This document shows, one piece after another, positions 13,578 to 40,788 of a stretch of 64,000 bases of DNA. The DNA is from Salipaludibacillus daqingensis. Its GTDB lineage: Bacteria; Bacillota; Bacilli; Bacillales; Salisediminibacteriaceae. The number at the start of each line of letters is the position of its first letter. Position 1 is the stretch's first letter. A model generated the notes under the pieces. The model was not told where the DNA came from. It was given only the letters and a program-made list of their open reading frames with translations, and ran no database searches. The position numbers and the translations under genes are program-made. The DNA lies in assembly GCF_029891575.1 (NCBI RefSeq), contig NZ_JARZHF010000007.1, forward strand, positions 186,001 to 250,000. Reading direction: 5' to 3'.

Positions 13578-15116
13578 TTAAAAGATGATCAGCGCACCAG
13601 TAACTCCTATTACTCCGAGAAGAGCAAGGATATATACTGGTTTTACTGGCATTTCACCATCGTTTTCCATCGCTTTACCAAACATATAGAATACTAATGG
13701 GTGAACTAAGAAAGGCATAGAGAAAATAAACGGAATGAGTGCAGCAGCATCTGCACCAAACATACCTTCTTGAATCGCTGCAAATAACCCGAAGTGAGAA
13801 ATAGCACTTGTTTGAGCCATCGCACCATAATCCATTTGCATAGCACTTAGACTCAATAGTGTTAACCCACCGAATACTGCACAAATTTGCCAACCGAATG
13901 AAAACTGCATTAAGGCATTGACTTCTTTTTTATCATTCCCTTGTGCATCTCTTAAGTTGCGTAACGCATAAATCGTCAAAAGGATACCAATCGACACGAG
14001 AATAAAGGAAGGTAATAACCATAAGTTTCCTCTCTCTGCACTAATAGCCAAAATGGAGAAAACAAAAATGTGACCGAAAAACGGAATGTTGATCATAATT
14101 GGCGCTCTTTTTGCTGCTACATTTCCAAAGTCCCCAGCTGTACAAGCCCCTGTTAAACCTGAGTGAGATAGTGCACCGGCCATACCCGGTGCTAAGTTTC
14201 TTGCATTCGTTGTTTTTGAAAAATACATTATTAACGCAATACCACCAAACATCCATAACAATTGTCCGAAAAATCCATATGCGAGAACAGCATTCATGCC
14301 GTCGATCGTAAATGCTTCTCCTATTCTGGAACCACCAACCATAAAGTTTGCAGCTAAAACAACTGGAATACCTCCGAATAACAGCGCTCGAATTGTCGGA
14401 CCAAATGTCCAGCGGTACATGACAGCCCCAATAGCTGCTGCGATCATCATCGCAAAGAAAATTTGTGGAAGAGCGATAATTGGTTTAATCAATTGCGCAA
14501 CTTGATAGGAAAGAAACAAAACGGCAACAATGCCTGTGATTTCAATTAATCCTTTTCTTATATATAAACGTTTATTTGTTATTCGCGCTTTGTTATCAAT
14601 GAAAATAATAGCACCAACAAGACCGATGTAGGCGATAAGTGGATAATAATTACTTAACATAGCATCTTGCCCTGTACCTAGAATAAGTCTAATTAAACCT
14701 TCAATACCTAATAGTAAGAAGAAAGAACGTAAAATGAAAATAAATTGTGTACGGGTCGTTCCTAACACTGTTTCTTCTTCAGATGGAACAACCATATTAT
14801 CTGCAATTTCTTTTTTGTTACCAAGAATTTTTCGTAATTCTTGTCCCCCTACAAAAAAGGAAACTGTTAAAGCGATGATTGTCGTACTAGCCATTAAATT
14901 GACAAAAGGAAATTCTGATAAGCCTGGAGTGGAAACATCACTAATAACTAATATGTAACCTAACGACAATCCGAAGATAACTATAATAAGTATTGGAGAG
15001 TACCTTGTTCCTGCTACAACTGTTCTAGATATAATTACCATAGGTATTAGAAAAAACAGAAGAATCCAAAATTGATTCAACAACTGTAAGTTCGTAATTT
15101 GTTCTACAATGTCCAT
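13578..15116 (-). CDS. Polytopic membrane protein, transporter-like
   Basis: A 512-residue integral membrane protein with roughly 12 hydrophobic spans. The architecture is that of a secondary transporter, but I do not recognise its family. Notable conserved-looking re-entrant-type segments are STTIIALTVSFFVGGQELR (about 78-96) and the Gly/Ala/Ser-rich GMAGALSHSGLTGACTAGD (about 310-328), each between spans, as in ion-coupled carriers with two structural repeats. A distant relation to sodium:glutamate symporters is possible but unproven. The start follows AAGGGG on the minus strand. It is monocistronic, and its upstream region is shared with adhE. Confidence 0.6.
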   Translation of the reverse strand: MDIVEQITNLQLLNQFWILLFFLIPMVIISRTVVAGTRYSPILIIVIFGLSLGYILVISDVSTPGLSEFPFVNLMASTTIIALTVSFFVGGQELRKILGNKKEIADNMVVPSEEETVLGTTRTQFIFILRSFFLLLGIEGLIRLILGTGQDAMLSNYYPLIAYIGLVGAIIFIDNKARITNKRLYIRKGLIEITGIVAVLFLSYQVAQLIKPIIALPQIFFAMMIAAAIGAVMYRWTFGPTIRALLFGGIPVVLAANFMVGGSRIGEAFTIDGMNAVLAYGFFGQLLWMFGGIALIMYFSKTTNARNLAPGMAGALSHSGLTGACTAGDFGNVAAKRAPIMINIPFFGHIFVFSILAISAERGNLWLLPSFILVSIGILLTIYALRNLRDAQGNDKKEVNALMQFSFGWQICAVFGGLTLLSLSAMQMDYGAMAQTSAISHFGLFAAIQEGMFGADAAALIPFIFSMPFLVHPLVFYMFGKAMENDGEMPVKPVYILALLGVIGVTGALIIF

Positions 15117-15454
15117 ATTAAAACCCCTTATATAATTTTCTCACACAAGTTTATATATTATCCTATTAATACGTTAAAATAAATACCTTTTAACATAAAT
15201 GTATTACAATATTGTTAATTATATAGAAGGTAGCTGAATGATCTTACATAATGGAGTTCGTTTTATTTAGCTATATTCAAAAAAGATACAATTAGTAAAG
15301 ACAGAACTCACGAACTTTCGCTTCTATTTATTTTAAACAAAACAACATAGTGTTAAAAACAAAATATAAATAGATTTATTTTATTTGAGTCGTTTGCTAT
15401 GAAAAAAACAATGAAAATCAAGTGTTGAAAGGAACTGTCAATAAATCGACAAAA

Positions 15455-15468
15455 TGAATACGGTATCA
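15455..15468 (+). promoter_or_regulatory. cre-like site (CcpA) upstream of adhE
   Basis: TGAATACGGTATCA matches the catabolite-responsive element consensus TGWAANCGNTNWCA at all but one position. It lies about 60 bp upstream of the -10 hexamer. Single-site matches of this kind are moderately common by chance. Confidence 0.35.
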
Positions 15469-15474
15469 TTGTGA

Positions 15475-15492
15475 ATGTGAATCATTTCACAA
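15475..15492 (+). promoter_or_regulatory. Rex/Fnr-like operator upstream of adhE
   Basis: ATGTGAATCATTTCACAA matches the Rex operator TTGTGAA-N4-TTCACAA except at the first base. The same bases also fit the Bacillus Fnr pattern TGTGA-N6-TCACA. Both regulators respond to low oxygen or redox state and both fit control of adhE, so sequence alone cannot choose between them. Confidence 0.7.
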
Positions 15493-15523
15493 ATTGGTCA
15501 TTTTATTTTATGTGAATACGCGC

Positions 15524-15594
15524 TATAATACAATTGTAATCAACAGAACAGCAAGGCGATTTATTTTTTAAGAAAACATGTGAAACACATCACA
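15524..15594 (+). promoter_or_regulatory. adhE -10 element and second TGTGA-N6-TCACA site
   Basis: TATAAT (15524-15529) is the only strong -10 upstream of adhE and has no good -35 (TTTTAT at 17 bp), as expected for a regulated promoter. A second TGTGA-N6-TCACA palindrome (15579-15594) lies between the -10 and the RBS, in the 5' leader, and would act as a repressor site if bound. Confidence 0.55.
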
Positions 15595-15615
15595 TAATCT
15601 TTAGGAGGAATTAAA

Positions 15616-18219
15616 ATGGCTGTAAATGAAAAGAAGATGACAAAAGTTAATGAGACAGTTCAAGTAATTGATGAGTTAGTGAAAAATGGAAAAAAAGCAC
15701 TTGAAGAATTTCTTGAATATGATCAACAACAAATTGATCATATCGTTCAAGAAATGGCGTTAGCTGGACTTGACCAACATATGCCTTTAGCAAAAATGGC
15801 AGTGGAAGAAACAAAACGCGGTGTTTATGAGGATAAAATTATCAAAAATATTTTTGCTACAGAATATATTCATAATACGATTAAACATGATAAAACAGTA
15901 GGAATTGTACATGAAAATGAACATGAAGAAATGGTCGAAATAGCTGAACCTGTTGGGGTTGTAGCTGGAGTTACACCTGTAACAAATCCAACTTCCACAA
16001 CAATGTTCAAAGCACTGATCGCTATTAAAACTAGAAACCCTATCATTTTTGCTTTCCATCCATCAGCACAAAAATGTAGTTCAACTGCTGCAGAAGTAGT
16101 TTACAAGGCCGCTGTTAAAGCGGGGGCGCCAGAAAATTGTATTCAATGGGTAGAAAAACCATCAATAGAAGGAACGCAACAATTGATGAATCACCCAGGA
16201 GTGGCTGTTGTATTGGCAACCGGCGGAGCTGGTATGGTGAAATCAGCATACAGCACTGGAAAACCAGCATTAGGTGTTGGACCAGGAAATGTACCTTGTT
16301 ATATAGAAAAAACTGCTAATGTAAAGCAAGCTGTCAACGATCTAATCCTATCAAAAACGTTTGATAACGGTATGATTTGCGCTTCTGAGCAAGCAGTTAT
16401 CATTGATAAAGAAATTTATGAAGAGACAAAATTAGAATTACAAGAAAACAACTGCCATTTCTTAACGGAAGACGAGCGCAAAAAAGTTGAGACGTTAGTA
16501 ATTAATGAGGATACTTGTGCAGTAAATCCTAAGATTGTTGGTATGCCAGCAGCTGAAATTGCTAAAATGGCCGGAGTTACCGTTCATAATGAAACGAAGA
16601 TTTTACTTGCTGAATTAAAAACGGTCGGACCTGAATCTCCATTATCAAGAGAGAAATTAAGTCCAGTACTTGCGTGTTTTAAAGTGAAAAATCAAGAAGA
16701 AGGTTTTAAGAGAGCAGAAGAAATGCTCGAATTTGGAGGACTTGGTCACTCTGCAGTTATTCACTCAGGTAGAGAAGACGTCATTCGTCAATATGGCATG
16801 AAAATGAAAGCTGGAAGAATTATTTCAAACGCTCCTTCTTCTCAAGGTGCAATAGGTGATATTTATAATGGATTCCTCCCTTCATTAACACTAGGATGTG
16901 GATCTTACGGACGTAATTCCGTTTCACAAAACGTAGGTACAATTAATCTTGTAAACTTCAAAAAAATAGGGATGAGAAAAAATAATATGCAGTGGTTTAA
17001 AGTTCCGCCAAAAGTATACTTTGAAAAGAATTCTACTCAATATTTAGAAAAAATGCCTAATATTACTCGAGCTATGATTGTAACAGATGAAATGATGGTA
17101 AAGATGGGATATGTAGATAAAGTTCTTTACTACTTGAACAAACGAGAAGATAAAGTACAATATGAGGTCTTCTCAGATGTAGAACCTGATCCATCTATTG
17201 ATACAGTTATGGCAGGAGCAGCAGCGATGGCTAGATTTGAACCTGACGTAATCATAACATTAGGTGGAGGATCTGCGATGGATGCTGCGAAAGGGATGTG
17301 GGTTTTCTATGAGCACCCAGACTTAGAATTCCATGGTTTAAAACAAAAATTCTTAGATATTCGTAAGAGAGTTTTCAAATATCCTAAATTAGGAAATAAA
17401 GCCCAATTTGTAGCAATTCCTACAACATCAGGTACAGGTTCAGAAGTAACGTCATTCTCTGTTATTACTGATAAAGAGAATAATGTAAAATATCCATTGG
17501 CTGATTATGAGTTAACACCTGACGTTGCGATTATTGACCCAGTTTACGTTAAATCAGTCCCACCTTCTGTGACAGCAGATACAGGAATGGACGTCCTTAC
17601 ACATGCGATTGAGTCTTACGTTTCTGTGTTAGCGAATGATTATACGGATGGATTAGCTATGAAAGCAATCCAGCTAGTATTCGAATATTTACCAAAGGCT
17701 TACAAGAATGGAAATGATGAATTAGCTCGTGAAAAAATGCATAATGCTTCCACCATTGCTGGTATGGCATTCGCTAATGCGTTCTTAGGAATTAATCATA
17801 GTTTGGCACATAAAATGGGAGCAGAATTCCACATTGCTCACGGTCGTGCAAATACCATTTTGATGCCACACGTCATTCGATATAATGCTACAAAACCAAG
17901 GAAATTTGCATCTTTCCCTAAATACAACCATTTTAAAGCAGATGAGCGTTATGCTGAAATTGCTAGAATGCTTGGTTTGCCAGCAAAAGATACCCAACAG
18001 GGTGTAGAAAGTCTTGCCCAAGCAATTATTAAAATGGCAAAAGAAATGAATATTCCAATGAGTATTGAAGCATGTGGAGTAGACAAAAAAGTCTTTGAAG
18101 AAAAAGTGGACTATCTTGCAGATCGAGCATTTGAAGATCAATGTACAACTGCAAACCCTAAACTTCCTCTAGTTACAGAATTAGCTGAAATTTATCGTTT
18201 AGCATATAAGGGCGTTTAG
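15616..18219 (+). CDS. adhE: Bifunctional acetaldehyde-CoA/alcohol dehydrogenase
   Basis: Reduces acetyl-CoA to acetaldehyde and then ethanol, regenerating two NAD+ during fermentation; family members assemble into cytoplasmic spirosome filaments. The N-terminal aldehyde dehydrogenase domain has its catalytic Cys at residue 255 (NGMICASEQAV) and the NAD-binding ATGGAGMVKSAYS block. The C-terminal iron-dependent alcohol dehydrogenase domain has the GGGSAMDAAK motif and the metal-binding His residues in GINHSLAHKMG and FHIAHGRANT. The 867-residue length is normal. The start is backed by TAGGAGG. The upstream region carries Rex/Fnr-like sites. The PFL-like gene follows after 84 bp containing a hairpin, so partial co-transcription is likely. 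Confidence 0.97.
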   Translation: MAVNEKKMTKVNETVQVIDELVKNGKKALEEFLEYDQQQIDHIVQEMALAGLDQHMPLAKMAVEETKRGVYEDKIIKNIFATEYIHNTIKHDKTVGIVHENEHEEMVEIAEPVGVVAGVTPVTNPTSTTMFKALIAIKTRNPIIFAFHPSAQKCSSTAAEVVYKAAVKAGAPENCIQWVEKPSIEGTQQLMNHPGVAVVLATGGAGMVKSAYSTGKPALGVGPGNVPCYIEKTANVKQAVNDLILSKTFDNGMICASEQAVIIDKEIYEETKLELQENNCHFLTEDERKKVETLVINEDTCAVNPKIVGMPAAEIAKMAGVTVHNETKILLAELKTVGPESPLSREKLSPVLACFKVKNQEEGFKRAEEMLEFGGLGHSAVIHSGREDVIRQYGMKMKAGRIISNAPSSQGAIGDIYNGFLPSLTLGCGSYGRNSVSQNVGTINLVNFKKIGMRKNNMQWFKVPPKVYFEKNSTQYLEKMPNITRAMIVTDEMMVKMGYVDKVLYYLNKREDKVQYEVFSDVEPDPSIDTVMAGAAAMARFEPDVIITLGGGSAMDAAKGMWVFYEHPDLEFHGLKQKFLDIRKRVFKYPKLGNKAQFVAIPTTSGTGSEVTSFSVITDKENNVKYPLADYELTPDVAIIDPVYVKSVPPSVTADTGMDVLTHAIESYVSVLANDYTDGLAMKAIQLVFEYLPKAYKNGNDELAREKMHNASTIAGMAFANAFLGINHSLAHKMGAEFHIAHGRANTILMPHVIRYNATKPRKFASFPKYNHFKADERYAEIARMLGLPAKDTQQGVESLAQAIIKMAKEMNIPMSIEACGVDKKVFEEKVDYLADRAFEDQCTTANPKLPLVTELAEIYRLAYKGV

Positions 18220-18231
18220 AAAATAATTCTA

Positions 18232-18264
18232 ATATGTATAGGAGGTTTATCCTCCTATACATAT
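18232..18264 (+). terminator. Hairpin between adhE and the PFL-like gene (attenuator candidate)
   Basis: A 14-bp perfect inverted repeat (18232-18245 with 18251-18264, core TATAGGAGG) has a 5-nt loop TTTAT. It is followed only by the weak T-rich CTTTATTTCTC. It may be a leaky terminator or an mRNA-stabilising/processing hairpin that lowers expression of the downstream gene. Confidence 0.6.
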
Positions 18265-18303
18265 CTTTATTTCTCTTGATGATTTCATAGAGGAGAGATT
18301 GCA

Positions 18304-20535
18304 ATGCAAACGGTAGAAAATTTTAAACAAGGTGTATGGTGTGAAGAAATTGATGTTAGAGATTTTATTTTACGAAATATGGTTACTTATAAAGGAAATG
18401 ATGACTTCCTTGAATCACCTACAAATAGAACAAATAAGTTATGGGAAAAGGTTCAAATTCTCATTGAACAAGAAGAAATAAAGAATGGAATGTTAGATAT
18501 TGATACAAAAACCGTATCAACCATTACCTCTCACGATCCTGGGTACATTGATAAAAATTTAGAGATAATTGTAGGTTTGCAAACAGATGAACCACTAAAA
18601 CGTGGAATTATTCCTTATGACGGCATTCAAACTATAAAACAAAACTGTGAACATTATGGCTACAAATTAGATTCTAATCTAGAAAAGTCCGTTTTACTTA
18701 ACCGAAAAACGCATCAAAAGAATCTTCTCCAATTATATTCTGAAGAAATGAAACTTGCTAAACATGCAGGTGTTTTTTTTGATCTTCCAGACACTCAAGG
18801 AAGAGGTAAAATAATAGGCGATTACCGCAGAATCGCGCTTTATGGTGTTGATAGACTAATACGAGATAAATGGATTGAAAGAGAAGAGTTAGAAAAACAA
18901 CGGATGTTGACAGAAGATGTCATTCGTCAGTTAGAGGAAGTTTCAGAACAGATACAAGCATTATTTGACCTTAAACAAATGGCTTTATCCTATGGATTTA
19001 ATATATCACATGAAGCTAAAACTGCAAAAGAAGCATTTCAGTGGATTTATTTTGGTTTTTTAGCCGCGATAAAAGAGCAAAACGGATTAGGTATGAGCAT
19101 CGGAAGAATATCAACCTTTTTAGATATATATATCGAAAGAGACTTGGAAGAAGGTCTCATTAATGAGTCACAAGCACAAGAGCTTGTTGACCAATTTGTG
19201 ATGAAGTTAAGACTGGTAAGGTTTCTAAGAACGCCGTTAGATAACCATCCCATTAGAGAAGTTCCAATGTGGATTACTGAATCTATTGGGGGAATAGCGA
19301 TGAATGGAGTACCTATGATTACGAAAACCTCTTATCGTTTTCTTCATACACTTACGAACTTAGGTCCATCTCCTGAGCCTAATTTAACAGTACTCTGGTC
19401 AACTAAACTCCCTAATAATTTCAAAAATTATTGTGCAAAAACGAGTATTAAAACGAGTTCCATTCAATATGAAAATGATGATCGAATACGTGCAGCAGTG
19501 GGAGATGATTATGCTATTGGAGGTTCCGTATCTGTTCTGAGAATTGGTAAAGAAGTCCAATATTTCGGAGGAGTTGCGAACTTTGGAAAAGCATTATTGT
19601 ATGCAATTAATGGTGGGCAAGATGAAGTTTTGGGCGAACAAGTAGCTCCTGAAATAGAAGCAATAAAATCAGACTACTTGGATTTTGATGAAGTAATATA
19701 CAAATTTGATAAAGTATTAGCATGGTTAGCTTCTCTTTATGTAAAAACCTTAAATATGATTCATTATTCTCATGATAAATATGCTTATGAACGCATGCCT
19801 ATGGCCCTTCACGATCATGACACAGTACGAAAGATGGGGCTTGGTGTTTCAGGTTTGTCTGTTGTTGCAGATAGTCTGAGTGCAATCAAATATGCGAAAG
19901 TCCGAATTATTCGTGGGAGTAATGGTTTATCGAAAGAATTTGAAATTGAAGGAGATTTCCCTAAGTATGGAAATAATGACACGAAAGTTGATGAATTAGC
20001 CATACAAGTAACTAACATGTTTCTTTCTAAGCTTCAAAATATTTATACGTATCGATTTTCCTTACCGCTGTTATCTGTGTGTACAATGTCATCAAATATC
20101 ATTTCCGGTCAAAAAACAGGAAGTACACCAGATGGTCGGAAAGCAGGATTACCATTTGCTCCTGGGGCAGATCCAATGCATGGGCGTGATCAAAAAGGCG
20201 CTCTAGCTTCCCTTAGTTCTATTGCTAAAATTAGTTATGATCAATTGAAAGATGGAACATCTTGCACTTTTTCCATTTCACCTAAAGCGTTAGGTAGTGA
20301 AAAAGAATTGGTGATATCTAATTTAATTGGGATTATAAATGGTTATATGGACTTAGGTGGTCATCATATGAATGTGAACATCATTAATCGAGAACATTTG
20401 ATTGAAGCCATGAAATGTCCAGACCATTATCCGCAAATCACTATTCGAGTTTCAGGATATGCTTGTAACTTTATTAAACTTAGAAAAGACCAACAGTTAG
20501 ATGTAATTTATCGAACATGTCATTTGACTATGTGA
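18304..20535 (+). CDS. Pyruvate formate-lyase-like glycyl radical protein lacking the catalytic Cys pair
   Basis: A full-length (743-residue) PFL-family protein. The glycyl radical loop RVSGYA is intact, with the radical Gly at 718. [12 protein letters not shown], the active-site Trp (W323, in MWITESIGG), the [13 protein letters not shown] segment and [13 protein letters not shown] are also conserved. At the place of the catalytic C418-C419 of E. coli PFL (AIACCVS), the sequence reads AIGGSVS, giving G407-S408. Where E. coli has the pyruvate-binding R435 (FFGARAN), it reads YFGGVAN (V424). Ordinary formate-lyase activity is therefore doubtful. No pfl-activating radical-SAM gene is adjacent. 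RBS AGAGGAGAG. The frame is undamaged over 2.2 kb, which argues against a pseudogene. Whether it has different chemistry or is a subunit/decoy of a true PFL is unknown. Confidence 0.85.
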
Positions 20536-20562
20536 TAAAGAATGTGAATTGTATAATGACGT

Positions 20563-20595
20563 CCTCCTCTCTTGTTTAATAACAGAGGGGGTTTT
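20563..20595 (+). terminator. Intrinsic terminator after the PFL-like gene
   Basis: An 8-bp stem, CCTCCTCT (20563-20570) with AGAGGGGG (20584-20591, one G:T), is followed by TTTT. It lies 28 bp past the stop. Confidence 0.75.
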
Positions 20596-20888
20596 AATTT
20601 ATAAATAGAATACACATCTTTTAATGTATGTATATTTCTATGGATTTCTAGACTAAATTAGATTTATTACATAATTTTTGCTGGTATATTAAGGTTTTCG
20701 CTAAAATGTTAGTTTTTATGTTAGATTATTTCACAATTTTTGAAATTTATATTGTAATTCTAAATTTACTGAATTATACTAATTTTATTAAATGATTTCG
20801 GAATACGCAGAATATTTAAAGAAAAACGATTAATTTCGTAATTTATTTAGCAATTTCAATCGAAAAGGTAAAGAGATGTGATAATCTA
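20596..20888. other. AT-rich intergenic region before the Lrp-type gene
   Basis: About 290 bp of very AT-rich sequence without an ORF. A TTTCA...TGAAA inverted repeat lies around 20729-20748. It may hold the promoter and autoregulatory sites of the downstream regulator, but no clear -35/-10 pair stands out. Confidence 0.4.
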
Positions 20889-21338
20889 ATGGGAAAACTT
20901 GATCAAAAGGATTTAGCAATTTTAAATTACTTACAAGAAAATGGTAGATGCTCATATACCGAAATAGCTAGACTACTTAATGTGAGTGAAGGGACAGTTC
21001 GTACTCGAATCAATCGAATGTTAAAAGATGATGTTTTTGAATTTGTTATACATACTAATCCAAATAAAATTGGATTGAACGTTCAAGCTATTATTGGAAT
21101 AACAACAAAATTAGGAAAACATGAGGAAATAGCAGAAGAATTAAGAAGTTATTCGGAAGTTCGTTTTGTAGGGGCTTTTTCCGGAACTCACGATATTATT
21201 ATTCAAGCTTATTTTAAAAACAATGAAGAATTGATGGATTTTGTTAATAAAAAATTAGCTCAAATTGATGGTATTGAGAGTGAAGAAGTGAATGTTGAAT
21301 TAAAACAATATAAAGATTCCTTTTCCTATATTCCTTAA
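20889..21338 (+). CDS. Lrp/AsnC-family transcriptional regulator
   Basis: A DNA-binding regulator of the feast/famine family. Its 149 residues open with the AsnC-type winged helix-turn-helix (LDQKDLAILNYLQENGR, then YTEIARLLNVSEGTVRTRI, about 4-45). A RAM/ligand-binding domain follows, with the GAFSGTHDIIIQAYF motif (about 97-111). Such proteins sense amino acids or related metabolites and often regulate a neighbour. It lies between the fermentation genes and the app peptide transporter, and either could be a target. The Shine-Dalgarno is weak and distant (AAAGGTAAAGAG), so poor translation or another start is possible. Ligand unknown. Confidence 0.88.
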   Translation: MGKLDQKDLAILNYLQENGRCSYTEIARLLNVSEGTVRTRINRMLKDDVFEFVIHTNPNKIGLNVQAIIGITTKLGKHEEIAEELRSYSEVRFVGAFSGTHDIIIQAYFKNNEELMDFVNKKLAQIDGIESEEVNVELKQYKDSFSYIP

Positions 21339-21360
21339 GTGAAGAAGTTTAAAAGCCTAA

Positions 21361-21375
21361 AATTTTCCGAATATT
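21361..21375 (+). promoter_or_regulatory. CodY-like box upstream of appD
   Basis: AATTTTCCGAATATT matches the CodY consensus AATTTTCWGAAAATT at 13 of 15 positions. It lies 93 bp before the appD start. CodY control of peptide uptake genes, including the app operon, is known in Bacillus. A direct repeat CGAATATT overlaps it (21368-21375 and 21385-21392). Confidence 0.55.
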
Positions 21376-21467
21376 CATTTTAAACGAATATTGCGTAAGC
21401 AAAAGAAGAATTAACATACTGGTTTAATTGGAACGTTCATTAAATTATTTTGATTTGAGGTGCAGGA

Positions 21468-22472
21468 ATGAAGAAAGACAGAATTTTAGATGTTAAAGGG
21501 TTAAAAACACAATTCAAAATAGATAAAACAAGAGTTGCCAAAGCCGTAGACAACATAGACTTTTACATCGAAAAAGGAGAGACACTTGCGATAGTTGGAG
21601 AATCTGGTAGTGGGAAAAGTATTACTGCTCTATCGATTATGCAACTCATTCCAAGTCCACCAGGAAAGATTGTAGATGGTTCTATTGAACTTGACGGTAT
21701 CGATCTATTGAAACTTAATGAAAAACAAATGACCGAAACAAGAGGAAATGACGTTGCGATGATTTTCCAAGAGCCAATGACGTCGTTAAATCCAGTTTTT
21801 ACGATAGGAACTCAAGTCTCGGAGCCTTTAAGAAAGCATAAAAAGATGGGAAAAAAAGAAGCGAAAAAACAAACGATTGAGTTATTGAAACTTGTTGGTT
21901 TTCCGAGAGCAGAAGATATTTTTCATGAATACCCACACCAACTTTCAGGTGGTATGCGTCAAAGAGCAATGATTGCGATGGCTCTATCTTGTGCTCCTAA
22001 ATTAATTATTGCTGATGAGCCTACAACAGCTCTTGACGTGACAATACAAGCTCAAATTCTTGATCTGATGTTAGATATGAAAAAGAAAACTGGATCTTCG
22101 ATTTTGATGATTACTCACGATCTTGGAGTTGTAGCGGAAACGGCCGATCGTGTAGCTGTTATGTACGCTGGACAGATCGTCGAATCAGCTTCTGTTAAAG
22201 AGTTATTCGTTAATCCAAAACATCCTTATACAGTAGGTCTTTTAAATAGTATGCCGAAAATTGAACAAGATACAGAGCGGTTAGAATCCATTCCTGGAAT
22301 GGTTCCACCAGCTCATAACTTTCCTCAAGGATGCCGATTCGCTCCAAGATGTAAACATGCAATGGAGCAATGTACAGAAGCCCTTCCGGAGTTAATTGAA
22401 GATGGCTTGAATCACAAAGTCCGCTGTGTATTATACGATGGAAGCGGCAAAGGAGTCTCTCATGTCAAGTAA
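21468..22472 (+). CDS. appD: Oligopeptide ABC transporter ATP-binding protein (AppD/OppD type)
   Basis: One of two ATPases energising peptide import at the inner face of the membrane. It is 334 residues long. Motifs are Walker A GESGSGKS, the Q-loop segment MIFQEPMTSLNPVF, signature LSGGMRQRAMIAMAL, Walker B LIIADEPTTALD, and the C-terminal oligopeptide-transporter extension with the Cys-rich GCRFAPRCKHAMEQC. The start has GAGGTG. The 3' end overlaps appF by 11 bp. The D-F-A-B-C order is that of the Bacillus app operon rather than opp (A-B-C-D-F). Confidence 0.93.
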   Translation: MKKDRILDVKGLKTQFKIDKTRVAKAVDNIDFYIEKGETLAIVGESGSGKSITALSIMQLIPSPPGKIVDGSIELDGIDLLKLNEKQMTETRGNDVAMIFQEPMTSLNPVFTIGTQVSEPLRKHKKMGKKEAKKQTIELLKLVGFPRAEDIFHEYPHQLSGGMRQRAMIAMALSCAPKLIIADEPTTALDVTIQAQILDLMLDMKKKTGSSILMITHDLGVVAETADRVAVMYAGQIVESASVKELFVNPKHPYTVGLLNSMPKIEQDTERLESIPGMVPPAHNFPQGCRFAPRCKHAMEQCTEALPELIEDGLNHKVRCVLYDGSGKGVSHVK

Positions 22473-37412: not shown

Positions 37413-38450
37413 ATGACAAAGTTAACGGAAAGAAAACTATATGATGTACAAGCACCGAATTCTTCTACAGGAATTATTTTAGGGGAAAGTTCAAACGTAC
37501 TGAACTGGGATGATGTTCGATTTTCTTGGGCTTATCCTCTATACAAAAACATGTTAGGCAACTTCTGGACACCATTTGAAATTAATATGAGTTCAGATGC
37601 CAAACAATTTGCAGATTTATCCGAAACAGAAGAGGAAGCTTTTAAAAAAATTATCGGTTTATTGGCCTTTCTTGATAGCATTCAAACAGATTATGCCATG
37701 CACGTTTCGAAGTATTTAACAGACTCCAGTCTAAATGCCCTAATGACCGTATTGGCATTCCAAGAAGTGGTTCACAACCAAAGCTATTCTTATGTGCTTT
37801 CGAGTCTTGTAAACAAAGATGAACAAGATGAAATATTTGAATACTGGAAACATGATCCTATATTGAGAGAGAGAAATGATTTTATCGCGGAAGGATATGA
37901 AGCATTCATAAATAATCCGACTCCTCGGACGCTCTTAGAATCAATTGTTTACGATGTGATTTTAGAAGGTTTAAACTTTTACTCAGGATTTAGTTTCTTT
38001 TATCATTTGGCAAGAAATCAAAAAATGGTCTCTACATCGACAATGATCAATTACATCAATCGCGATGAGCAACTTCATGTGTTTCTTTTTGCAAATCTGT
38101 TTAAAGAACTTCGAAGGGAATTTCCAGAACTTCAAACAGAGGAAGTAGATGATTTCGTTCAACGAACGTTTATACATGCAGCAGAATTAGAAATCAAATG
38201 GGCGAATCACATTATTGGTGAAAAGATACCAGAAATTCCGATCAACGATTTGGAAAACTATATCAAATTCATGGCGAATAAACGTGTAAATGAATTAGGA
38301 ATTGAACGACCATTTGAGGGACATCGGTCCAATCCGATGAAATGGATTAAAGTTTATGAAGATGTGAACCAAGGGAAGACTGATTTTTTCGAGCAAAAAT
38401 CAAGACAATATACAAAAGTATCAGAGGATAACGGGTTTGACGATCTGTAA
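37413..38450 (+). CDS. nrdB: Class I ribonucleotide reductase, beta (radical) subunit
   Basis: Holds the dimetal/tyrosyl radical for the alpha subunit. It is 345 residues and helical. Metal ligands are in LDSIQ (Asp), FQEVVHNQSY (Glu and His), EGLNFYSGF (Glu) and RDEQLHVFLF (Glu and His). The radical Tyr sits four residues after the first His (HNQSY), as in NrdB. C-terminal acidic NGFDDL is the tail that docks on alpha. The RBS TTGGAGGG is 14 bp after nrdA. Oxygen is needed to generate the radical, so this pair serves aerobic growth. Confidence 0.93.
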   Translation: MTKLTERKLYDVQAPNSSTGIILGESSNVLNWDDVRFSWAYPLYKNMLGNFWTPFEINMSSDAKQFADLSETEEEAFKKIIGLLAFLDSIQTDYAMHVSKYLTDSSLNALMTVLAFQEVVHNQSYSYVLSSLVNKDEQDEIFEYWKHDPILRERNDFIAEGYEAFINNPTPRTLLESIVYDVILEGLNFYSGFSFFYHLARNQKMVSTSTMINYINRDEQLHVFLFANLFKELRREFPELQTEEVDDFVQRTFIHAAELEIKWANHIIGEKIPEIPINDLENYIKFMANKRVNELGIERPFEGHRSNPMKWIKVYEDVNQGKTDFFEQKSRQYTKVSEDNGFDDL

Positions 38451-38476: not shown

Positions 38477-40324
38477 ATGAAGGAGTTAATCAAATCTTTT
38501 CAAGAAATTGAACAAATAAACAGTGAATCATTAAAAGAAAATGCAAATGTTGACGGCTGTTCACCGTTGGGTAAAATGAATACTTTCGCATCAGAAACGT
38601 GTAAATGGTATACAGATGAGTTTCTGTTATCAGAAACAACAAAACAAGCTCAAAATGAAAACATTCTCTATATTCATGACAAAGATTTTTATCCTACAGG
38701 AACAACGACATGCAGCCAAATTCCGTTAGACAAGTTATTGGATAAAGGGTTTTATACAGGACATGGTCATATCAGGGCACCAAAATCGATTCAGTCAGCC
38801 ATGTCCCTTGCAGCGATTATTTTGCAATCGAATCAAAACAATCAACACGGCGGTCAATCGTTTCAAAAGTTCGATTATGATTTGGCACCTTTCGTCCGCA
38901 AATCATATGAAAATATGAAACAACGATTGATTGAGAAACATAAAACATCCTTTAATAATGAAAAAGAATTAGAGGCGTTTGCTTGGGACGAAACAAGACA
39001 AGAAACGTTTCAAGCTTGTGAAGCATTTATTCATAATGCCAATAGCATGCATTCTAGAGGTGGTGGCCAAGTTCCTTTTGTATCGATCAATTACGGGACG
39101 GATACATCATTTGAAGGGAGAATGCTCGTAGATGAATTACTTCAAGCGACTAGAAATGGATTAGGAAATGGCGAAACGCCGATTTTTCCAATACAAATCT
39201 TTAAAGTGAAAAATGGTGTCAATGCGAAGGAAGAAGATCCTAATTATGATTTATTTGAAAAAGCCATACTAACAACCAGTAAAAGGTTATTCCCGAATTT
39301 TAGTTTTTTGGATGCCCCTTTCAATAAGCAATATTTCAATGGTGAACCAGAATCAGAAGTTGCTTATATGGGATGTCGAACAAGGGTAATGGCTAATATA
39401 CACGGAGAAGAAACGTCTGTCGGTAGAGGGAATTTGTCATTTTCTTCATTAAACCTTGTTCGATTAGCATTATTAGCTAATGGAGATAGGAATAAATTTT
39501 GGTCTGGCTTATCAGAAGCGATTGAAACAGTCATTCAACAATTGCTCGATCGTTATCGCTATCAATGTGACAAAGTTGCTGCAGAGTTCCCTTTTTTATT
39601 TTCACAAGGGATATGGAAAGATGGAGACCAACTAAAATTAAATGAGAAGGTAGAAAAGGTAATTAAACAAGGAACACTGAGCCTAGGATTTATTGGATTA
39701 GCAGAAGCGCTAGTCGTTTTAACTGGAGAACATCACGGACAGTCTAAAACATCATGGGAATTAGGAATAGAGATTGTTGCAAAACTTAGACAAGCAGCTG
39801 ACAAAGCAACGCAACATTATTGTGTGAATTTTGGAGTCATTGCTACGCCAGCAGAAGGTTTGTCAGGAAAATTTGTTAAGACTGATCGTAATGATTTCGG
39901 TTCGATTACTAATGTAACCGAAAGGGACTACTATACAAATTCTTTTCATATTCCCGTTCATTATTCTCTATCTATTCATGAAAAAATTAGACTAGAAGCA
40001 CCCTTTCATGCATTATGTAATGCAGGTCATATAACTTATGTAGAGCTTGACGGTAATGCTTGTAAAAACACAAAAGCTCTCATGCAGATCGTCGATTATA
40101 TGAAACAATCAGGCATTGGATACGGTTCGATTAATCATCCCGTAGATCATTGTATGACATGTGGTTATCAAGGTGAAATCAATATACAATGTCCGTCCTG
40201 TGGAGAAATGGATGAACACAAATTACATCATATTAGGCGAATTACGGGATACCTTGTTGGGGATATGAAAAGGTGGAATAAAGCAAAAAGAAAAGAAGAA
40301 GAAAACCGGGTAAAACACTTATGA
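38477..40324 (+). CDS. nrdD: Class III anaerobic ribonucleoside-triphosphate reductase
   Basis: Glycyl radical reductase for anaerobic dNTP synthesis. At 615 residues it is shorter than the roughly 710-residue E. coli enzyme because an N-terminal ATP-cone is absent. It has HGGQSFQKFDYDLAPFV, the zinc ribbon CMTCGYQ...CPSCGE (about 561-580), and the glycyl loop RITGYL with radical Gly at 591. Active-site Cys candidates are TTTCSQIP and YMGCRTRVM. RBS AGGGGGAG. The stop overlaps the nrdG start by 4 bp (ATGA), giving translational coupling with its activase. Confidence 0.94.
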   Translation: MKELIKSFQEIEQINSESLKENANVDGCSPLGKMNTFASETCKWYTDEFLLSETTKQAQNENILYIHDKDFYPTGTTTCSQIPLDKLLDKGFYTGHGHIRAPKSIQSAMSLAAIILQSNQNNQHGGQSFQKFDYDLAPFVRKSYENMKQRLIEKHKTSFNNEKELEAFAWDETRQETFQACEAFIHNANSMHSRGGGQVPFVSINYGTDTSFEGRMLVDELLQATRNGLGNGETPIFPIQIFKVKNGVNAKEEDPNYDLFEKAILTTSKRLFPNFSFLDAPFNKQYFNGEPESEVAYMGCRTRVMANIHGEETSVGRGNLSFSSLNLVRLALLANGDRNKFWSGLSEAIETVIQQLLDRYRYQCDKVAAEFPFLFSQGIWKDGDQLKLNEKVEKVIKQGTLSLGFIGLAEALVVLTGEHHGQSKTSWELGIEIVAKLRQAADKATQHYCVNFGVIATPAEGLSGKFVKTDRNDFGSITNVTERDYYTNSFHIPVHYSLSIHEKIRLEAPFHALCNAGHITYVELDGNACKNTKALMQIVDYMKQSGIGYGSINHPVDHCMTCGYQGEINIQCPSCGEMDEHKLHHIRRITGYLVGDMKRWNKAKRKEEENRVKHL

Positions 40325-40788
40325 TCCGGATTTTATCAATTATTCATGATTCTATTGTGGATGGAGAAGGCTTACGAACAACGATGTTTTTTGCTGGTTG
40401 TCCTCATGAGTGCATTGGTTGTCACAATCCAGAAAGCTGGCTATATGAGAATGGACAACTTTATTCAGTAGATGCTTTACTAAAAACAGTTACCGATTTT
40501 CCATTAAATCAGGTCACTTTCTCTGGAGGAGAACCTTTTCATCAAGCAATGGAAATTATCCCATTAGCAAAAGAGATTAAAGCAATGGAAAAAAATATAT
40601 GGTGTTATACGGGTTATACATTTGAATGGTTACACAGCCATGGGAATGAATATCAGAAGACGTTGTTAACTTATATCGATACTCTTGTAGACGGACCTTT
40701 CATACAGAATTTAAGAGATACAACCTTGCATTTTCGAGGAAGTACGAATCAACGAATCATTGATCTTAACAGCGTTTTATTAGAATAA
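40321..40788 (+). CDS. nrdG: Anaerobic ribonucleotide reductase activating protein
   Basis: Radical-SAM activase that installs the glycyl radical on NrdD. It is 155 residues. The [4Fe-4S] motif CPHECIGC (C27, C31, C34) and the SAM-binding FSGGEPF segment are intact. It overlaps nrdD by 4 bp and is the last gene of the B12-regulated operon; a terminator follows 15 bp downstream. It is the only radical-SAM activase in the window. It is not an obvious partner for the distant PFL-like protein. Confidence 0.95.
   Translation: MIRILSIIHDSIVDGEGLRTTMFFAGCPHECIGCHNPESWLYENGQLYSVDALLKTVTDFPLNQVTFSGGEPFHQAMEIIPLAKEIKAMEKNIWCYTGYTFEWLHSHGNEYQKTLLTYIDTLVDGPFIQNLRDTTLHFRGSTNQRIIDLNSVLLE

Follow-up and report, generated by a model that had tools for sequence, protein, structure and literature searches.

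Glycyl radical enzymes are regarded as unable to do without their Cys loop. For pyruvate formate-lyase (PFL), R176 and R435 are described as the ligands of the pyruvate carboxylate and F327 as lying near the methyl group of pyruvate (PMC10653868). An engineered E. coli PflB in which both cysteines of the loop are replaced, C418A/C419A, still bears the glycyl radical in vivo, shown by oxygen-dependent cleavage, but it made no formate and was unable to supply the radical to another subunit or to replace GrcA (PMC12338860).

Here we describe a natural PFL relative that lacks both cysteines. It is encoded in a stretch of 64,000 nucleotides of Salipaludibacillus daqingensis DNA, referred to in the following as the window (GCF_029891575.1, NZ_JARZHF010000007.1, positions 186,001-250,000 of the forward strand). 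The gene, P0001 (18304..20535, plus strand), was delimited from the list of open reading frames and from Pfam and TIGR01255 matches; it encodes a PFL paralogue of 743 residues with a PFL-like and a glycine-radical domain, from which the catalytic Cys pair is absent.

The P0001 gene and its altered active site

The frame of P0001 starts with ATG and continues for 743 codons with zero internal stops and no frameshift, which confirms an earlier note on this DNA that had called it undamaged. A reading of the sequence places a Shine-Dalgarno-like GAGGAGA (18290..18296, plus strand) 7 bases before the ATG. Pfam assigns residues 14-600 to the PFL-like domain PF02901 and residues 618-724 to the glycine-radical domain PF01228 (109.4 bits); the RVxGY motif of the latter is present as RVSGYA, with the glycyl-radical glycine at G718 (20455..20457, plus strand, by sequence and alignment). 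The score with TIGR01255, the NCBI PFL equivalog, is 961.7 bits and thus below the cut-off of 994.2, which was passed by all four comparison PFLs (1089-1463 bits), namely the canonical PFL of the same genome (1232.5 bits), E. coli PflB and two PFLs from MAGs. The codon usage and GC3 of P0001 are inside the range of the neighbouring genes, and codon usage and GC carry no foreign signal.

Where PFLs have AIACCVS, P0001 has AIGGSVS (19513..19533, plus strand; residues 404-410), with GGT encoding G407 and TCC encoding S408. In the alignment with E. coli PflB, a check the earlier note had proposed, G407 aligns with C418, S408 with C419 and G718 with G734. The claim that Gly-Ser replaces the Cys pair is thereby borne out by sequence and alignment, and the positions given for W323, F421 and G718 are correct as well. 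C419 is Cys in all 127 other PFLs compared; at C418, 125 of them have Cys and 2 have Ser. These 127 are distinct sequences of near full length with an identity of 45% or more, chosen after partial and more distant ones had been dropped, and they are not a random sample, as the C418S sequences L033 and L034 came from a scan for non-Cys motifs and some viral-contig copies from a scan for Cys-Cys. A profile alignment to HypD-type enzymes places the second position of the pair, C419, on their single catalytic Cys (GCVE). Since S408 occupies this column, P0001 has Ser at the thiyl-radical site shared by glycyl radical enzymes, and the catalytic Cys of the Cys loop is absent.

The changes extend well beyond the motif. 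Near-invariant columns, defined as those at least 97% uniform across 96 other PFLs, number 272; P0001 breaks 47 and keeps 225 of them, as compared with a mean of 1.0 and a maximum of 19 (L033) among the 96 others. In view of this difference, the altered motif is unlikely to stem from chance or from a point error in sequencing. Nine residues were counted as the recognised pocket: R176, A272, A273, F327, W333, C418, C419, F432 and R435, of which A272, A273, W333 and F432 are included as what we take to be pocket residues, and F327, at 96% uniformity, lies outside the 272 columns. Seven of the nine are changed (R176K, A272L, A273G, F327I, C418G, C419S and R435V), W333 and F432 being retained. By alignment, the replacements outside the Cys pair are K169 at Arg176 (18808..18810), L262-G263 at Ala272-Ala273 (19087..19092), I317 at Phe327 (19252..19254) and V424 at Arg435 (19573..19575), all on the plus strand. 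The proportion of changed residues in the pocket exceeds that in the other near-invariant columns (41/264; Fisher p = 9.6e-5), also when the Cys pair is left aside (5/7, p = 0.0019). N145, F149 and R160, presumably residues of the CoA site, are all changed, and on these assumed roles the CoA site would be lost too.

The earlier note had stated that nearly every PFL landmark and the flanking motifs are conserved; this did not stand, because R176, R435, A272, A273 and F327 are replaced in addition to the Cys pair. R176, A272, A273, C419, R435, L604, G734 and V737 are invariant in all 127 PFLs, and in place of the two carboxylate ligands, Arg in every one of them, P0001 has K169 and V424. Judged by its missing Cys pair, its TIGR01255 score and these ligands, P0001 falls outside PFL, and we class it neither among the PFLs nor among the proven glycyl radical enzymes. 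The retention of RVSGYA does not exceed what the general change rate of 17% allows, and special retention of this motif lacks statistical support.

Genomic setting and relatives

Directly upstream of P0001, at a distance of 84 bp, lies adhE (15616..18219, plus strand; 867 aa; named from its sequence). A hairpin of 14 pairs between the two genes (18232..18264, plus strand; folding z = -5.18) is a candidate terminator or attenuator; it is terminator-like on both strands and may uncouple adhE and P0001. A Rex-like site is found upstream of adhE (15475..15492, plus strand) with 1 mismatch, and a second one (15578-15595) with 3 mismatches, to an assumed consensus; the pattern with up to 3 mismatches occurs 16 times in the window, a total reached by 4 of 100 shuffles. 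No Rfam family matches in 14900-21500. Downstream of P0001 is a gene for an Lrp/AsnC-type regulator (20889..21338, plus strand; likewise named from its sequence), which directly follows adhE in G007. The latter, called here the closest genome, is the one with the adhE most similar to that of the window (stretch L140). Its genes adhE (90% identical), the Lrp-type gene (80%) and appD-appF (92%) are arranged as in the window, with no PFL between them, and the spacing from adhE to the Lrp-type gene is 343 bp in G007 vs 2669 bp in the window. Alignment to the closest genome did not define where the additional 2.3 kb begins or ends. No PFL is located downstream of adhE in 12 other adhE stretches either, one of which (L147) has a PFL upstream on the other strand. 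Based on these comparisons, the P0001 copy either arose by gain or was uniquely kept in its own lineage. In a tree, its branch is 1.85 changes per column long, its placement is unsure, and grouping with the PFL clade of its own family was not rejected (AU p = 0.164, quick tree); transfer is an equally possible origin.

The order adhE-pfl-pflA was seen in two of ten stretches, L059 and L065, the ten being nine relatives and the genome's own canonical locus. In the window there is no pflA after P0001 and no activase adjoining it. The canonical pfl-pflA pair sought at the suggestion of the earlier note was found 33 kb from P0001, where the genome's one canonical PFL (AIACCVS) has PflA beside it. 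TIGR02493 yields five matches in the genome, and the PflA next to the canonical PFL alone passes the cut-off. The only other Gly-radical domain found in the genome belongs to an NrdD-like gene in the window (38477-40324). It is accompanied by a gene for an NrdG-like activase (40321-40788), whose TIGR02493 match is below the cut-off, and the pair is directly preceded by what reads as a class I ribonucleotide reductase small-subunit gene (37413-38450). The genome also contains a second AdhE-like frame (G000:C7:28484-30961, ~880 aa, 31-47% identical to the window's adhE). In L146, from the same genus (G004), adhE is in three pieces, two of them with a stop in the match.

Protein searches covered 100 relatives and samples of 8 genomes of the genus, 35 of the family, 397 of the order, 398 of the class and 398 of the phylum, which overlap and each include the window's own genome. 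Among the matches listed there was no full-length relative of P0001 above 61% identity. An orthologue that would allow selection after the Cys loss to be tested was not among them. Fragments in a broken draft, G034, are 62% identical to P0001 over ~490 residues and have the canonical CC; the best plasmid match is 59.1%, and in a phage collection 24 of 1545 records fall in the 60-80% band, the ten matches listed all being below 58%. Full-length PFL genes occur in records labelled phage (H21-H29), several of which are short and unannotated and possibly host DNA. A locus-level search of genome contigs revealed no relative of the P0001 locus. The genome contigs of 84,980 species were then scanned for sequences that have the PFL context but, at the first Cys of the pair, a codon not beginning with T. 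This context recovers 118 of the 127 PFLs plus P0001; the scan would miss a serine encoded by TCN and may not have encountered the genome studied here, which is possibly outside the collection. It gave two matches, both Ser-Cys and neither Gly-Ser; in viral contigs, the same scan gave none, vs 18 canonical motifs. Two PFLs of Clostridia-type MAGs that read ASCVS (L033:3158-5392, minus strand, and L034:67-2301, plus strand; Defluviitaleaceae and Lachnospiraceae) are natural single-Cys PFLs, and in L034 a PflA-like gene, recognised from its sequence, lies alongside. Among the literature matches listed, consisting of titles and abstract openings with subscription papers mostly outside, no natural PFL without both cysteines was encountered.

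Possible functions of P0001

In the model we favor, to which we assign a probability of about 0.45, P0001 is a PFL-fold protein of full length that no longer carries out the PFL reaction, would still bear the radical and would act without PFL catalysis. With C418, C419, R176 and R435 replaced and seven of the nine pocket residues changed, no PFL chemistry is to be expected from it. The gene looks maintained, as far as can be judged from one genome. Folding and radicalisation of P0001, which keeps RVSGYA, are likely by analogy, since PflB C418A/C419A carries the radical in vivo and its structure, 1cm5, has been solved. Among solved structures, 1cm5, which reads AAVS at the aligned positions, gives the best match to P0001 (875.7 bits vs 873.5 for the wild type).

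The PflA of the genome would thus remain able to introduce the radical at G718, just as the pair-less PflB acquires its radical from E. coli PflA, and the activase serving P0001 would be that of the canonical pair. P0001 would then act independently of PFL catalysis. In the simplest case it would compete for PflA or pair with normal PFL subunits, and it might thereby tune the amount of active PFL beside the adhE ethanol route; this last step is the least secure. A role as radical donor is unlikely, because the E. coli double mutant could neither pass its radical to another subunit nor replace GrcA. The earlier note had raised three possibilities, namely other chemistry, a Cys recruited from elsewhere and a partner of a real PFL, and each of them is compatible with the data. 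We prefer a non-catalytic role exerted through PflA or PFL, either of them a putative partner, because it needs no new chemistry. An intact frame and fold family, the loss of catalytic residues and a gene that appears to be maintained, as seen in one genome, are what would make P0001 a pseudoenzyme of PFL. Arguing against a non-catalytic protein is C593, which fits catalysis better than a dead enzyme.

According to the main alternative, P0001 functions as a glycyl radical enzyme, but on a different substrate and with the radical passing from G718 to C593 on strand beta-8 within a rebuilt pocket; C593 would face the old site, and the Cys-loop cysteines became Gly-Ser. C593 (TGT; 20080..20082, plus strand) aligns with Leu604, which is Leu in 127/127 PFLs compared (96/96 in a smaller set), and the change from Leu to Cys takes at least two base changes. 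The earlier note had suggested a Cys recruited from elsewhere and had named two: C593 (in LLSVCTMSS) replaces an invariant Leu and provides this idea with a specific candidate, whereas C654 (in GTSCTFSIS) is ordinary, 12 of 96 other PFLs having Cys there. The profile alignment places L604-x-I606 of PFL on the L-x-T of HypD-type enzymes, which in HypD is L643-x-T645, as placed by a primer sequence in PMC7077986. In isethionate sulfite-lyase, IslA, F682 is equated with HypD T645, and Val680, two residues before F682, lies ~3 Å from the catalytic Cys468 (PMC8473560). C593 aligns with IslA Val680 and so would occupy a position in contact with the former catalytic Cys, which in P0001 is Ser preceded by two Gly. 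The pocket appears remodelled rather than emptied, and a second new cysteine, C721 (TGT; 20464..20466, plus strand; at Val737 by alignment), lies three residues past the radical glycine. In benzylsuccinate synthase, an enzyme outside the alignment with P0001, Val709 is named as one of a pair of residues that the Cys has to displace before it gets to the opposite face of the glycyl radical (PMC11194802).

Against these arguments stands the number of new cysteines. P0001 has eight, of which five (C13, C593, C705, C721 and C739) are at positions that lack Cys in all 96 other PFLs, and by our own estimate one of the five would lie near the pocket by chance with a probability of ~10%, if 15-20 of the 743 positions count as near. 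Two Cys among the 47 replaced near-invariant columns are only mildly above expectation. Moreover, we know of no glycyl radical enzyme with its catalytic Cys on beta-8. Because one near-pocket Cys out of five is within chance, we consider relocation of the thiol possible but rather doubtful.

It is less probable still that P0001 is a redundant, perhaps foreign, PFL copy that has lost its function and has simply not yet acquired a stop. Such decay would agree with its occurrence in one genome only among the matches listed, its very long branch, the presence of a normal PFL in the same genome and its position below the TIGR01255 cut-off. However, at fourfold-degenerate sites of residues shared with L058, 0.30 of the third bases agree, with 0.31 expected at random, and three other relatives gave 0.39, 0.33 and 0.30. 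The synonymous sites are thus saturated, yet the 225 near-invariant columns are retained. In neutral simulations (six sets of 500 runs) driven to P0001's level of change, on the assumption that all 47 breaks postdate the loss of PFL function, drift to 47 broken columns changed ~17% of the residues, with 7 to 9 stop codons expected, and a stop-free outcome was obtained in 1 of 3000 runs, which is no proof of selection at present. Start codon, Shine-Dalgarno-like site and frame of P0001 are all intact, and its changes are denser in the pocket than in other columns. Pure decay is therefore disfavoured by the saturated sites, the retained columns and the simulations, in support of the earlier note's view that this is not simple decay.

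That P0001 is still a PFL, another residue doing the job of the Cys pair while pyruvate continues to be cleaved, is very improbable: W333, F432, G734 and most of the core are retained, but R176, A272, A273, C419 and R435, unchanged in the 127 other PFLs, are all replaced, and the E. coli C418A/C419A protein makes no formate (PMC12338860). An assembly or sequencing artefact at AIGGSVS can practically be dismissed, since P0001, although known from a single assembly, diverges along its full length (at most 61% identity to the full-length relatives listed) without a frame break, and the other genes around it are in the same order in G007.

P0001 and known radical systems

P0001 is a natural and apparently maintained PFL relative without the Cys loop, and it may be either a pseudoenzyme or a glycyl radical enzyme whose thiol has moved. 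As an enzyme it would test whether the position of the thiyl radical can move, and thiol migration, if true, would be the first natural case we know of in the glycyl radical enzyme superfamily. As a pseudoenzyme it would provide a way to ask whether PFL can be regulated by a subunit that bears the radical but is not catalytic. For the prediction of fermentation from genomes it matters that a perfect glycyl-radical motif in a protein of the PFL fold does not guarantee formate production.

P0001 resembles PflB (TIGR01255; E. coli structures 1h16 and 2pfl) in its length class, both domains, RVSGYA, W333 and F432, at 53% identity to E. coli PflB and at most 61% to other PFLs among the full-length matches listed; it differs by the seven pocket replacements and by its sub-threshold TIGR01255 score. 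The natural C418S PFLs L033 and L034 have likewise lost C418, but C419 and the pocket residues are retained in both, and both score above the TIGR01255 cut-off. With GrcA/YfiD, P0001 shares a PFL-type Gly-radical domain, and three NCBIfam GrcA models match its residues 670-742, all below their cut-offs; GrcA, however, is a small spare part, whereas P0001 is full length, and the pair-less engineered PflB cannot replace GrcA (PMC12338860). That protein, PflB C418A/C419A, is like P0001 in having lost the Cys pair while the radical glycine is present. It is an engineered variant, in contrast to P0001, in which nature has also changed most of the pocket and introduced new cysteines at L604 and V737.
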